The notes beneath the pieces were generated by a model. It was not told the origin of the DNA. It saw only the letters and a list, made by a program, of their open reading frames with translations, and ran no database searches. A program made the translations under genes and the position numbers. Shown one piece after another: positions 31,877 through 36,926 of a DNA stretch of 64,000 nucleotides. The stretch's first letter is position 1. Each line of letters starts with the position of its first letter. The stretch is from Lentzea tibetensis. Lineage in GTDB: Bacteria; Actinomycetota; Actinomycetes; Mycobacteriales; Pseudonocardiaceae. The DNA is taken from the NCBI RefSeq assembly GCF_007845675.1, contig NZ_VOBR01000004.1, forward strand, positions 323,719-387,718, given 5' to 3'.

Positions 31877-33187
<1,311 letters not shown>

Positions 33188-33216
33188 ACAGAGCTATTTC
33201 CAGAATTCGGGCGGCG

Positions 33217-33245
33217 TTGACTTCGGGTTGACGCTCGCCTGTACT
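33217..33245 (+). promoter_or_regulatory. Promoter of the ssu leader peptide
   Basis: TTGACT, a 17-bp spacer and TGTACT (33240-33245) fit a -35/-10 pair (4 of 6 at -10). The -10 ends seven bases before the ATG of the leader peptide, so the expected transcript start is at or next to that ATG: the peptide mRNA would be leaderless. Confidence 0.65.
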
Positions 33246-33252
33246 CAGCGGC

Positions 33253-33333
33253 ATGAGTGAGCGCGAGATCCTGGTGGCTCGCCTGCACGTCGATCTTCGG
33301 CGGCAGGCGAGCGCGATCTGTCGTACGCGCTGA
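33253..33333 (+). CDS. Cysteine-containing leader peptide of the sulfonate operon
   Basis: A 26-residue peptide with the motif RLHVDLRRQASAIC followed by RTR. Short peptides with HVDL..R..SA.C upstream of sulfur-assimilation genes are a recognised actinobacterial leader family; cysteine codons near their ends sense cysteinyl-tRNA. The single Cys codon TGT is at 33319-33321, codon 23. The stop lies 36 bp before ssuC. It has no Shine-Dalgarno, and the promoter position predicts leaderless translation. Confidence 0.85.
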   Translation: MSEREILVARLHVDLRRQASAICRTR

Positions 33334-33364
33334 TCAAACCCACCTTCTCGCTCGCCGCTGGGAG
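33306..33364 (+). promoter_or_regulatory. Attenuator: competing stems between leader peptide and ssuC
   Basis: GGCGAGCG (33306-33313), inside the leader peptide coding region, pairs perfectly with CGCTCGCC (33349-33356), which ends four bases before the ssuC ribosome binding site GGGAG (33360-33364). A competing stem GCGCG/CGCGC (33311-33315/33326-33330) shares three bases with the first arm, so the two exclude each other. A ribosome halted at the Cys codon would cover the first arm and leave the ribosome binding site open. Confidence 0.6.
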
Positions 33365-33369
33365 AAATC

Positions 33370-34176
33370 GTGTCGATTTCTGTTGCGGGCGTACTCGCGC
33401 GCCCGAAAACAGCCGTACCCCGCCCACGAAAACGTTCCCTACCGCTGCGCTGGATCAGTCCGGTCGCATTGGTTCTGCTGTGGCAGGCCGCCAGTTCGAC
33501 CGGCGTCCTGCCACCGGACAAGCTCGCCTCACCGCTGACCGTCGTCGCCTCGGCGGGTGAGCTGATCGCCGACGGCCAGCTCGGCGAGGCGTTCGCCGTC
33601 TCGCTCGGCCGGGTGTTCTTCGGCTTCCTGCTCGGCGGGGTCGTCGGCGTCGTTCTCGGCCTGGTGTCCGGGCTTTCGCGCTGGGGCGAGACGCTGCTCG
33701 ACCCGCCGGTGCAGATGCTGCGGACGTTGCCGCACCTCGGCCTCATCCCGCTGTTCATCCTGTGGTTCGGCATCGGGGAGGAGCCGAAGCTCGCGCTGGT
33801 CGCGGCGGGCGTCGCCTTCCCGCTGTACCTCAACCTGCACGCCGGCATCCGGCAGACCGACCCCGGCCTGGTCGAGGCGGCGAAGGTGCTCGGCTACACG
33901 CGCGTCGAACGCGTGGTGCACGTCGTGCTGCCGTCCGCCGTGCCGCAATCCCTGGTGGGTCTGCGGATCGCGCTCGGCACGGCGTGGCTCTCGCTGATCG
34001 TGGGCGAGCAGATCAACGCCGACGCGGGCCTCGGCTTCCTGATCAACAACGCCCGCGAGTTCCTGCGCACGGACATCGTCGTGGTGGGCCTGGTGGTCTA
34101 CGCGCTGCTCGGCCTGACGACGGACTACCTCGTCCGGCTGCTCGAGAGGAGGGTGCTGCGATGGCGAGCGCGGTGA
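33370..34176 (+). CDS. ssuC: Sulfonate ABC transporter permease SsuC
   Basis: A 268-residue BPD_transp_1 permease with about six helices. After a basic N-terminal tail come ALVLLWQAASSTGVLPP, GRVFFGFLLGGVVGVVLGLVSG, and the EAA-loop region EAAKVLGYTRVERVVHVVLPSAVP (about 175-198) that contacts the ATPase. GTG start with GGGAG five bases upstream. It is first in a tightly overlapping ssuCBAD operon. The nitrate/taurine/sulfonate transporter class cannot be separated by the permease alone; the ssuD gene points to alkanesulfonates. Confidence 0.93.
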   Translation: MSISVAGVLARPKTAVPRPRKRSLPLRWISPVALVLLWQAASSTGVLPPDKLASPLTVVASAGELIADGQLGEAFAVSLGRVFFGFLLGGVVGVVLGLVSGLSRWGETLLDPPVQMLRTLPHLGLIPLFILWFGIGEEPKLALVAAGVAFPLYLNLHAGIRQTDPGLVEAAKVLGYTRVERVVHVVLPSAVPQSLVGLRIALGTAWLSLIVGEQINADAGLGFLINNAREFLRTDIVVVGLVVYALLGLTTDYLVRLLERRVLRWRAR

Positions 34177-34862
34177 GCATTCGCGGTCTGCACAAGGCTT
34201 TCGGGTCACGGGTCGTGCTCGACGGCGTCGACCTGGAGATCGCGCCCGGCGAGTTCGTCGCGCTGCTGGGACGCAGCGGCTGTGGGAAGTCCACGCTGCT
34301 GCGGATCCTCGCCGGGTTGGACTCGGACGTGCGCGGGTCGTTCTCGGTGCCGGGCACGGTGTCCATCGCGTTCCAGCAGCCGAGGCTGCTGCCGTGGCGA
34401 CGGGTGTGGCGCAACGTCTCCCTTGGGCTGCACGGGGTCGACGGCCGCGAGGTCGCCAGGAAGGCGCTGGACGAGGTGCGCCTGCCCGACCACGCCGACG
34501 CGTGGCCGCTGACGCTGTCGGGCGGTGAGGCGCAACGGGTCTCGCTCGCGCGGGCACTCGTCCGGCAGCCGGACGTGCTGCTGCTGGACGAGCCGTTCGG
34601 CGCGCTCGACGCGTTGACCAGGCTCGCGATGCACCGGCTGGTCGAGGACCTGTGGGAGGCGCACCGCCCGGCGGTGCTGCTGGTCACGCACGACGTCGAC
34701 GAGGCGCTGCTCCTCGCCGACCGGATCGTCGTGCTCGACGAGGGGCGCGTCGTCGCCTCGCACTTCGTGGACCTGCCACGCCCGCGGCGCCGGGCGTCGT
34801 TCGTGGAGCAGCGCGTGCGCGTGCTGGCTGATCTGGGAGTTGACGATGCGCAAGCTGCTTAG
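34161..34862 (+). CDS. ssuB: Sulfonate ABC transporter ATP-binding protein SsuB
   Basis: A 233-residue ABC ATPase. Walker A GRSGCGKST (37-45), Q-loop FQQPRLLPWRRVW, signature LSGGEAQRVSLARAL, Walker B VLLLDEPFGALDALTR and the H-loop VTHDVDEALLLAD are all complete. The AFQQPRLLPW form is typical of the nitrate/sulfonate/taurine subfamily. The ATG lies 16 bp inside ssuC and the gene overlaps ssuA by 17 bp. Confidence 0.95.
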   Translation: MASAVSIRGLHKAFGSRVVLDGVDLEIAPGEFVALLGRSGCGKSTLLRILAGLDSDVRGSFSVPGTVSIAFQQPRLLPWRRVWRNVSLGLHGVDGREVARKALDEVRLPDHADAWPLTLSGGEAQRVSLARALVRQPDVLLLDEPFGALDALTRLAMHRLVEDLWEAHRPAVLLVTHDVDEALLLADRIVVLDEGRVVASHFVDLPRPRRRASFVEQRVRVLADLGVDDAQAA

Positions 34863-35793
34863 CCTGCTGGCCGCGATCCTGCTGACCACGGGGTGCGGCG
34901 CGGCCGCGTCGACCCCCGGCGAGGTCGTGCTGAAGGTCGGTGACCAGAAGGGCGGGGCGAAGTCCCTGCTCACCGCGGCCGGTCTGCTGAACGACTTCCC
35001 TTACAAGATCGAGTGGTCGACGTTCACCTCCGGCCCGCCGCTGCTGGAAGCGGCGTCGGCGGGTGCGATCGACGTCGGCGGCGTCGGCAACACGCCACCG
35101 ATCTTCGCCGCGGCGGCGAACGCCAAGATCGCCGCGGTGGGTGCGTCGAAGGGCAACGTCGAGAGCGACGCGATCCTCGTGCCCGCCTCGTCGGCCCTGC
35201 GTTCGGTGGCGGAACTGAAGGGCAAGAACATCGCCGTGGCGAAGGGCAGCTCGGCGCACGGCCAGGTGCTGACGACGTTGCGCGGCGCCGGTCTCACGAC
35301 CAAGGACGTGACGCTGAACTTCCTGCAGCCGTCGGACGCGTACGGCGCGTTCACGCAGGGCAAGGTCGACGCGTGGGCGGTGTGGGACCCCTACACCGCG
35401 CAGGCGCAGCAGGAGGTCCAGGCGCGGGTGCTCGCCGACGGCAAGGGTTCGGCGAACGGCTACGGCTTCCAGGTCGCGAGCCGCAAGGCGCTGGACGACC
35501 AGGCGAAGAACCCCGCCATCAAGGAGTTCCTCGTCCGCTACTACAAGGCGCAGCGCTGGGCCGACGGCCACCGCGACGAGTGGGCGCAGGCGTGGTCCAA
35601 GGAGACCGGACTGAAGTACGAGGTCGCGCGGGCCGCGGTGGAACGCGCGGCGGACCTGCCGGTGCGGCTCGACGACACGGTGATCAAGTCCGAGCAGGAG
35701 CTCGCGGACGCCTTCACCGAGGACAAGACGTTGCCCGGCGAGGTCGAGTTCGCGAAGTTCGTCGACACGAGGTTCCAGGGAGATCTCTCATGA
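34846..35793 (+). CDS. ssuA: Sulfonate-binding lipoprotein SsuA
   Basis: A 315-residue substrate-binding lipoprotein. The signal peptide MRKLLSLLAAILLTTGC ends in a lipobox with Cys17. The mature protein follows the SsuA/THI5-like fold: KVGDQKGG, SAGAIDVGGVGNTPPIFAAAA and KGKNIAVAKGSSAHGQVL. It captures sulfonates on the membrane surface for SsuCB. ATG 34846 is chosen over the upstream TTG. The start is inside ssuB. Confidence 0.94.
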   Translation: MRKLLSLLAAILLTTGCGAAASTPGEVVLKVGDQKGGAKSLLTAAGLLNDFPYKIEWSTFTSGPPLLEAASAGAIDVGGVGNTPPIFAAAANAKIAAVGASKGNVESDAILVPASSALRSVAELKGKNIAVAKGSSAHGQVLTTLRGAGLTTKDVTLNFLQPSDAYGAFTQGKVDAWAVWDPYTAQAQQEVQARVLADGKGSANGYGFQVASRKALDDQAKNPAIKEFLVRYYKAQRWADGHRDEWAQAWSKETGLKYEVARAAVERAADLPVRLDDTVIKSEQELADAFTEDKTLPGEVEFAKFVDTRFQGDLS

Positions 35794-36926
35794 GCATCAC
35801 GCTGCACTGGTTCCTGCCGACGTCCGGCGACGGGCGCACGGTCGTGGAGCACTTCCACGCCAACCGCGCGCCGAGCGCGGGCGCACGCCGCGAGCCGGAC
35901 ATCGACTACCTGGCGCAGATCGCGCGCACCGCCGAGCAGGTCGGGTTCACCGGCGTGCTGACGCCGACCGGCACGTGGTGCGAGGACGCGTGGCTCACCA
36001 CCGCCGCGCTCATCGCGCAGACCTCGCGGCTGAAGTTCCTCGTCGCGTTCCGGCCAGGCGTCCTGTCGCCGACGCTCGCGGCGCAGATGGCGGCGACCTA
36101 CCAGCGGATCTCCCGCGGGCGGCTGCTGCTGAACGTCGTGACCGGTGGTGATGCCGTTGAGCAGCAACGGTTCGGCGACTGGCTGGACAAGGACGAGCGG
36201 TACTCCCGCACCGACGAGTTCCTGCAGATCGTGCGCGAAGTGTGGTCGGGCAAGCCGTTCTCGTTCGACGGCAGGCACTACAAGGTCGAGGGCGCCACGG
36301 TGCTCGCACCGCCGGACCCGGTGCCGCCGATCTACTTCGGCGGTTCGTCGGACGCGGCCCTTCCGGTGGCGGCACGACGCGCCGACGTGTACCTGACCTG
36401 GGGCGAGCCGCCAGCCGATGTGGCGGCGAAGATCGCTCGGGTGCGCGCGCTGACCGATCGGCCGATCCGCTTCGGCATCCGGCTGCACACGATCAGCCGC
36501 GACAGCTCCGCCGAGGCGTGGGCCGCGGCGGAGCGGCTGCTCGACGCGCTGGACCCCGCCGCGGTGGCGCAGGCCCAGTCACAGCTGCGGGCGTCGGAGT
36601 CCGTTGGGCAGCAACGCATGGTCGCGCTGCACGGCGGCGACCTGAGCCGGGGCGTCCGCGGCCTGGAGATCTACCCGAACCTGTGGGCCGGTGTCGGGCT
36701 CGTGCGCGGCGGTGCCGGTACCGCACTGGTCGGCAGCCACGAGGAGGTCGCCGACCTGATCGAGGAGTACCACGCGATCGGCATCAGCGAGTTCATCCTG
36801 TCCGGCTACCCGCACCTGGAGGAGGCCTACTGGTTCGGGGAGGGCGTGCGCCCGATCCTGGCCCAGCGCGGCCTGCTGTCCGGCGAGCGAGAGCTCTCGC
36901 TCGCCGGCGCGCCTTCCTTCAGCTGA
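35790..36926 (+). CDS. ssuD: FMNH2-dependent alkanesulfonate monooxygenase
   Basis: A 378-residue luciferase-fold enzyme that cleaves alkanesulfonates to aldehyde and sulfite with FMNH2 and oxygen. LHWFLPTSGDGR at the N-terminus, GVLTPTGTWCEDAWL (active-site Cys about 53), FRPGVLSPTLAAQMAAT and NVVTGGD match SsuD. Length agrees with the E. coli enzyme (381). The ATGA overlap with ssuA indicates coupling. No NADPH:FMN reductase gene (ssuE) is in the window, so FMNH2 would come from elsewhere. It converges with the protease gene (8-bp overlap). Confidence 0.95.
   Translation: MSITLHWFLPTSGDGRTVVEHFHANRAPSAGARREPDIDYLAQIARTAEQVGFTGVLTPTGTWCEDAWLTTAALIAQTSRLKFLVAFRPGVLSPTLAAQMAATYQRISRGRLLLNVVTGGDAVEQQRFGDWLDKDERYSRTDEFLQIVREVWSGKPFSFDGRHYKVEGATVLAPPDPVPPIYFGGSSDAALPVAARRADVYLTWGEPPADVAAKIARVRALTDRPIRFGIRLHTISRDSSAEAWAAAERLLDALDPAAVAQAQSQLRASESVGQQRMVALHGGDLSRGVRGLEIYPNLWAGVGLVRGGAGTALVGSHEEVADLIEEYHAIGISEFILSGYPHLEEAYWFGEGVRPILAQRGLLSGERELSLAGAPSFS

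Follow-up and report, generated by a model that had tools for sequence, protein, structure and literature searches.

The main result of our analysis is that the ssu sulfonate-uptake operon of Lentzea tibetensis is preceded by a short ORF best explained as a leaderless, cysteine-responsive leader-peptide attenuator belonging to the NF042934 family, a reading to which we assign a probability of about 0.72. It is the likeliest reading because the family, the sulfur context and a published mycobacterial system all speak for it. Comparison of sequences supports the ORF with its promoter geometry, the conservation of the peptide, its Cys codon and the link to ssu; the start of transcription, the cysteine response and its sign are what we infer. 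The locus lies in a window of 64,000 nucleotides, by which we mean the whole stretch of DNA that was analysed. Its principal features are as follows.

33217..33222, plus strand: -35 element TTGACT, seen in the sequence, with the spacing of TTGAC kept in relatives
33240..33245, plus strand: -10 element TGTACT, 17 nt after the -35 element and 7 nt before the leader ATG
33253-33330, plus strand: leader peptide ORF MSEREILVARLHVDLRRQASAICRTR, beginning with ATG, 26 sense codons followed by the stop TGA at 33331-33333
33319..33321, plus strand: single Cys codon TGT, the fourth codon from the end of the leader
33334..33355, plus strand: C-rich, G-poor spacer that follows the leader stop, with 50% C and 9% G
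about 33360-33365, plus strand: Shine-Dalgarno sequence of ssuC, seen in the sequence
33370..34176, plus strand: ssuC, sulfonate ABC transporter permease with a GTG start (NCBIfam SsuC; Pfam BPD_transp_1)
34140..34862, plus strand: ssuB-like ATPase, start approximate (best NCBIfam match, aliphatic sulfonate ATPase)
34840..35793, plus strand: ssuA, sulfonate-binding protein (TIGR01728, 216.7 bits, above the cut-off of 163.5)
35790..36926, plus strand: ssuD, alkanesulfonate monooxygenase-like, start approximate (NF001939; Pfam Bac_luciferase)

A sequence-only reading of this DNA had proposed a 26-codon ORF at 33253 with a Cys codon at 33319, and both are there. The ORF matches the NF042934 profile ('putative leader peptide', cis_reg_atten) with 34.3 bits against a cut-off of 27, and a six-frame search of the complete genome finds it with E 1.1e-6, which places it beyond chance. 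Against the Cys-rich Ms4527A profile NF042936, a family that presumably stems from the 2020 work of Canestrari, the leader scores 21.3 bits and stays below the cut-off of 45. Matches to NF042934 occur in 113 of 120 genomes drawn from the window's taxonomic family and in 79 of 118 drawn from its class (E 1e-4), as well as in 10 of 149 drawn from its phylum (E 0.001). The above-cut-off match together with this wide occurrence makes the leader a member of a broad, already curated family, with which it shares the character of a short ORF upstream of metabolic genes; we found nothing that excludes its membership. Many strong members are of an RRAVDLCR type with several Cys codons, and such rows were dropped by our HVD/SA.C search pattern. 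The core common to NF042934 is VDL.R followed by Cys near the stop, with the H and the single Cys marking one branch.

The genome of the window itself contains five places matching NF042934 at E 0.001, three of them above the cut-off. Family leaders in this genome also stand upstream of a sulfite reductase gene and, by eye, of a ferredoxin-like gene; against a sulfur role, however, others precede a ROK gene, a symporter gene and a gene for a protein without a Pfam match. Specifically, L006 stands before a nitrite/sulfite reductase gene, L008 before the gene whose product has no Pfam match and L009 before a sodium:dicarboxylate symporter gene. L004 (G000:C66:88323) lies upstream of the ROK-family gene, and an ssuC-like paralogue of 46% identity follows some 3.8 kb further along at G000:C66:92202. 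The leader upstream of the ferredoxin-like gene (L007, G000:C97:88441-88482, minus strand) ends in HVDLRRQASAICR and is separated from that gene by an AT-rich repeated element (TATGTAGCGAYATATC-like, by eye), perhaps an operator.

The -35/-10 pair whose -10 element ends 7 nt before the ATG had likewise been proposed from the sequence; it is present, and its leaderless geometry is kept in relatives. A sigma-70 consensus scan did not pick up the pair, returning 0 sites. TTGAC is found 35-38 nt upstream of the leader start in 38 of 47 ssu leaders and is missing at the expected distance in the other 9. In all 18 named close relatives that lack a leader (17 records from Lentzea plus one under the name Nocardia, which clusters with them), the start of ssuC itself lies 35-37 nt after the TTGAC of the same promoter, as established by script for 17 of them and by eye for L084. 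These leader-less Lentzea also carry an identical or near-identical -10 hexamer directly upstream of ssuC. One and the same distance from the promoter thus suits the leader in the window and ssuC in other Lentzea, a good though indirect indication that transcription starts at the start codon.

Among the downstream genes, SsuA alone passes a curated cut-off. For the other three the sulfonate family is the best match at sub-cut-off scores: SsuC at 260.8 bits (equivalog cut-off 347), the aliphatic sulfonate ATPase profile for the ssuB-like gene at 246.8 bits (cut-off 395) and NF001939 for the ssuD-like gene at 457.9 bits (cut-off 510).

The association of leader and sulfonate operon, also part of the earlier reading, holds across genera. 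With a wide search pattern, 25 of the 80 best named ssuC loci proved to have a leader upstream of the gene, as did 34 of 60 regions that we chose from a list of matches; the two sets overlap, and one chance hit (L297) was set aside by eye. The narrower first pattern (HVD/SA.C), which misses the AVDLCR type, had given 22/80 and 33/60, so that the rescan added three named leaders and one other leader (Saccharopolyspora-like YVDF type), none of them in Lentzea. Family leaders precede ssuC in Umezawaea, Actinokineospora, Kutzneria, Actinophytocola, Saccharopolyspora and Pseudonocardia, and in some members of Saccharothrix and Amycolatopsis. Comparisons among ssu leaders use the 49 distinct regions found by the first pattern, without the wide-pattern additions, 47 of them with an assigned start. 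For some rows the start of ssuC or of the leader was assigned by an automatic procedure, and a few of these starts look wrong (L111, for instance); as the rows are related, p values do not refer to independent data.

Within Lentzea the leader is an exception. An ssuC-like match is present in 24 of 25 genomes of the genus, and among 23 upstream regions (21 full-length orthologs and partial ones in two genomes) only the one in the window has a leader. A DNA tree of ssuC-ssuB-ssuA groups the 18 close relatives to the exclusion of the window (support 100/100). For its 25 rows two leader changes suffice, which we read as two separate losses, the first in the other Lentzea and the second in part of Saccharothrix. 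Because the window falls outside the 18 leader-less relatives, the leader is probably ancestral and was lost in them; this position, together with the presence of leaders in other genera, argues against a recent gain in the window lineage. A protein tree of 49 rows, in which the window is placed ambiguously within Lentzea, requires seven leader changes, at least five of them forced by supported branches. Since the trees need several losses or gains, control by the leader is dispensable.

Four regions of this leader-less Saccharothrix group (L085, L086, L093 and L095) no longer have the leader ORF but still show the promoter and the ribosome site of ssuC, with a short palindrome, CGCTGATCAGCG, between them. 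Three records stood out by their labels. The ssuC region of Nocardia sp. NRRL S-836 (L092) is Lentzea-like in the tree and that of Rhodococcus rhodnii (L101) is Kibdelosporangium-like by eye, and either record is possibly misnamed or contaminated; a contig labelled as an Alphaproteobacteria MAG (L149), with an ssuC 58% identical to that of the window, is possibly misbinned.

As to how a paused ribosome would raise ssu expression, our leading guess, held at somewhat less than even odds, is protection from Rho-dependent termination in the C-rich spacer. Between the leader stop and the ribosome site, ssu leader spacers average 46% C and 20% G. C exceeds G in 45 of 45 leader-ssuC spacers compared with 117 of 205 control intervals (Mann-Whitney p 2e-16, relatedness of rows ignored); the controls depend on a rough gene prediction, and some of them may lie upstream of ssuC. 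A C-rich, G-poor untranslated stretch of the kind that a Rho-dependent attenuator would need is present, with a YC density of 0.30 against 0.18 in the controls. An attenuator working through an intrinsic terminator can be dismissed, because a search for a hairpin followed by a U-run found 0 terminator-like sites in 32800-33600; in the window as a whole, 0 Rfam families reached the gathering score. The Rho step itself would not be simple: a ribosome paused at UGU, with an assumed downstream footprint of 13 nt, reaches approximately the stop codon and leaves the spacer open. A possible logic is that of TnaC-type leaders with Rho-dependent termination, where the ribosome at the leader peptide decides whether Rho acts. 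TnaC, however, stalls on free tryptophan, whereas for the window leader the sensing of Cys-tRNA supply is assumed.

Rho has been invoked for cysteine leaders before. In the passages available from Seliverstov 2005 (PMC1262725), it is proposed for cys leaders without terminators, in a prediction called weak. Those leaders share with ours the lack of an obvious terminator, pyrimidine motifs before the first gene and the suggestion of Rho; according to the same passages, they differ in having Cys runs and in lying upstream of cys or cbs, and the words 'ssu' and 'sulfonate' occur 0 times in the PMC1262725 text. The C-rich spacers fit this earlier proposal, though they may be C-rich for other reasons. 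For Streptomyces lividans, the available part of PMC8079986 lists eight leader peptides, none called cysteine-dependent, and no title or abstract beginning among the literature matches listed mentions a cysteine leader upstream of ssu genes.

Among the closest known parallels is the mycobacterial one. According to passages of a review (PMC9031893), leaderless sORFs that contain contiguous Cys codons control the genes behind them through attenuation; further passages on the same system are found in PMC4633059 and PMC9094748. As far as these sources extend, the window shares with the mycobacterial poly-cysteine attenuators the leaderless geometry, Cys near the end of the peptide and a sulfur operon downstream (PMC9031893, PMC9094748). 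It differs from them in more than its low NF042936 score. The mycobacterial leaders have a run of Cys codons, whereas the window leader has the single one at 33319, a point against the attenuator reading, and no conserved pairing between leader and ribosome site was found in the ssu leaders.

In all 35 core-type ssu leaders the motif Cys codon is TGT, and when the final Cys codon of each peptide is taken instead, TGT accounts for 46 of 47 ssu leaders. The background is 164 TGT among 1124 Cys codons (14.6%) in the long ORFs of the named loci. The search pattern did not fix which codon is used for the motif Cys. Among 51 HVD-type leaders not located before ssuC, TGT is used in 10 of 10 of the QAS type, 16 of 30 of the xSSA type and 10 of 11 of the rest; these counts omit 32 of 87 family loci without the HVD motif, mostly multi-Cys leaders of the AVDLCR type. 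Neither the ssu-linked NF042934 group nor a fixed TGT codon appears in the available passages of the literature, and the fixed TGT codon and the C-rich spacer are new details of ssu leaders.

The constancy of the peptide and the rare codon together suggest that the nascent chain helps. One explanation along this line, tentative and rather unlikely in our estimate, is that VDLRRQASA in the exit tunnel would let a single UGU give a strong cysteine-dependent pause. More is conserved ahead of the Cys than the mere need for a Cys codon would explain, while synonymous changes accumulate (pS 0.42 versus pN 0.08 in the 35 core-type leaders, the latter biased downward because rows were picked by peptide pattern). 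The sensing position always has the same rare codon, and the VDL.R core recurs in the multi-Cys members of the RRAVDLCR type. However, the search pattern itself accounts for part of the conserved positions, leaders of the AVDLCR type do not keep the H, and some ssu leaders have a quite different stretch preceding the Cys (RLAGCTC, VCAQAC, RLDATTC).

Two further explanations involve RNA structure, for which these elements are relevant.

33306-33313, plus strand: first arm GGCGAGCG of the earlier proposed stem, seen in the sequence
33349..33356, plus strand: 3' arm CGCTCGCC of the earlier proposed stem, seen in the sequence
33310-33315 and 33326-33331, plus strand: competing stem AGCGCG/CGCGCT, seen in the sequence
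33277..33286, plus strand: arm GCTCGCCTGC inside the leader, complementary to 33303-33312, from folding
33303..33313, plus strand: arm GCAGGCGAGCG (codons QAS), pairing with 33277-33286 or 33349-33356
33363..33381, plus strand: 8-bp ssuC start-codon hairpin AGAAATCG-TGT-CGATTTCT, overlapping the Shine-Dalgarno sequence, from folding

It is quite improbable that the hairpin AGCGCG/CGCGCT, which encloses the Cys codon, acts as a pause or stop signal melted by the ribosome. In folding calculations the stretch tends to be more stable than its synonymous recodings (mean z -0.81 over 36 leaders, 18 below -1 and 1 above 1), and replacing TGT by TGC would add a further 1.0 kcal/mol of stability on average. 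In the window itself, though, z is -0.22 and the stretch folds differently; the helix also varies between clades, near-identical Kutzneria-type rows weigh in the mean, and the scan of 32800-33600 gave no terminator-like site.

Still less probable is the translational attenuation put forward in the sequence-only reading, in which a ribosome stalled at Cys covers GGCGAGCG, leaves CGCTCGCC unpaired and frees the ssuC ribosome site. The arms of the two mutually exclusive stems do lie where they had been placed, and the 8-bp complementarity exists; the 168-nt region 33253-33420 also folds better than its own shuffles (z -3.1). The mycobacterial poly-cysteine leader model of Canestrari (2020) reportedly frees the ribosome site as well. 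The pairing named, however, did not hold up: of 46 other leader-ssuC spacers, 1 has the 3' arm, and that one belongs to a different leader type, leader-spacer complementarity is at chance level (mean z 0.04, 37 leaders), and the Shine-Dalgarno sequence lies outside the stem. For the ssuC ribosome site we compared three modelled states, namely free RNA, a ribosome paused on the final Cys codon and a ribosome at the stop, using 37 of the 49 rows (those with an assigned start and a spacer of up to 110 nt, as for the complementarity analysis, and here also with a recognisable Shine-Dalgarno sequence). In this folding model the window gave the reverse of the proposed release, with the opening cost of the site rising from 4.8 to 7.8 kcal/mol upon pausing, and over the 37 leaders the mean stayed practically the same (9.29 kcal/mol free, 9.28 paused), the cost falling by more than 1 kcal/mol in 4 and rising by more than 0.5 in 7. 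We therefore reject the 8-bp stem as a conserved switch on the grounds of chance-level pairing, the rarity of its 3' arm and the lack of average modelled opening. Some clade may use such a switch, since four leaders (L260 and, of another peptide type, L303, L304 and L305) follow it in the folding model.

Two structures had been missed in the earlier reading. One is the arm GCTCGCCTGC, a better partner of 33303-33312 than the one proposed. In the resulting leader hairpin (33277-33286/33303-33312), 72% of cells are paired across 35 relatives, compared with 29-55% for slid versions; nevertheless, we rejected it as a conserved element, as changes break pairs without compensation. The other is the hairpin that contains the ssuC start, which by eye takes the form GAAATC..GATTTC or GGAATC..GATTCC in relatives. 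It is predicted to be stable, and its signal relative to synonymous recoding of ssuC is weak (mean z 0.45; 12/46 above 1, 2/46 below -1). Overall, neither the folding model nor the pairing tests found an RNA switch conserved across relatives.

The least probable explanation, that the sORF encodes a small trans-acting protein or serves ribosome loading and its cysteine has no regulatory role, would agree with conservation at the peptide level, but the leader is kept before ssuC in several genera and has another copy before sulfite reductase in the same genome.

The attenuator reading may thus be pictured as follows. The transcript would begin at the leader ATG or right beside it. A ribosome would initiate directly on the 5' AUG and have to decode one UGU Cys codon, fourth from the end. 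With ample Cys-tRNA it would proceed and exit at UGA, leaving the C-rich spacer bare and the ssuC start in its own hairpin, so that the operon would be poorly expressed. With Cys-tRNA scarce it would pause at UGU and ssu expression would rise, the step between the two being, as a leading guess, Rho protection rather than the unlikely 8-bp stem. A bolder version, in our view doubtful, would join these elements into a single-codon cysteine sensor: the VDLRRQASA chain would slow the ribosome, one rare UGU, maintained in the face of strong codon bias, would replace the poly-Cys run of mycobacterial leaders, and Rho, not an RNA switch, would provide the output.

The ssu leaders connect leader peptides of the cysteine type with sulfonate scavenging in several genera of the taxonomic family. 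They also form a comparative set in which the leader is either kept or lost beside a kept promoter. That one rare Cys codon and a peptide motif are kept, and that no RNA pairing was found to be, makes the nascent chain and Rho, rather than hairpins, the places to look. Were the single-codon sensor true, the repeated loss of the leader and the leaderless ssuC of other Lentzea would provide natural on/off pairs.
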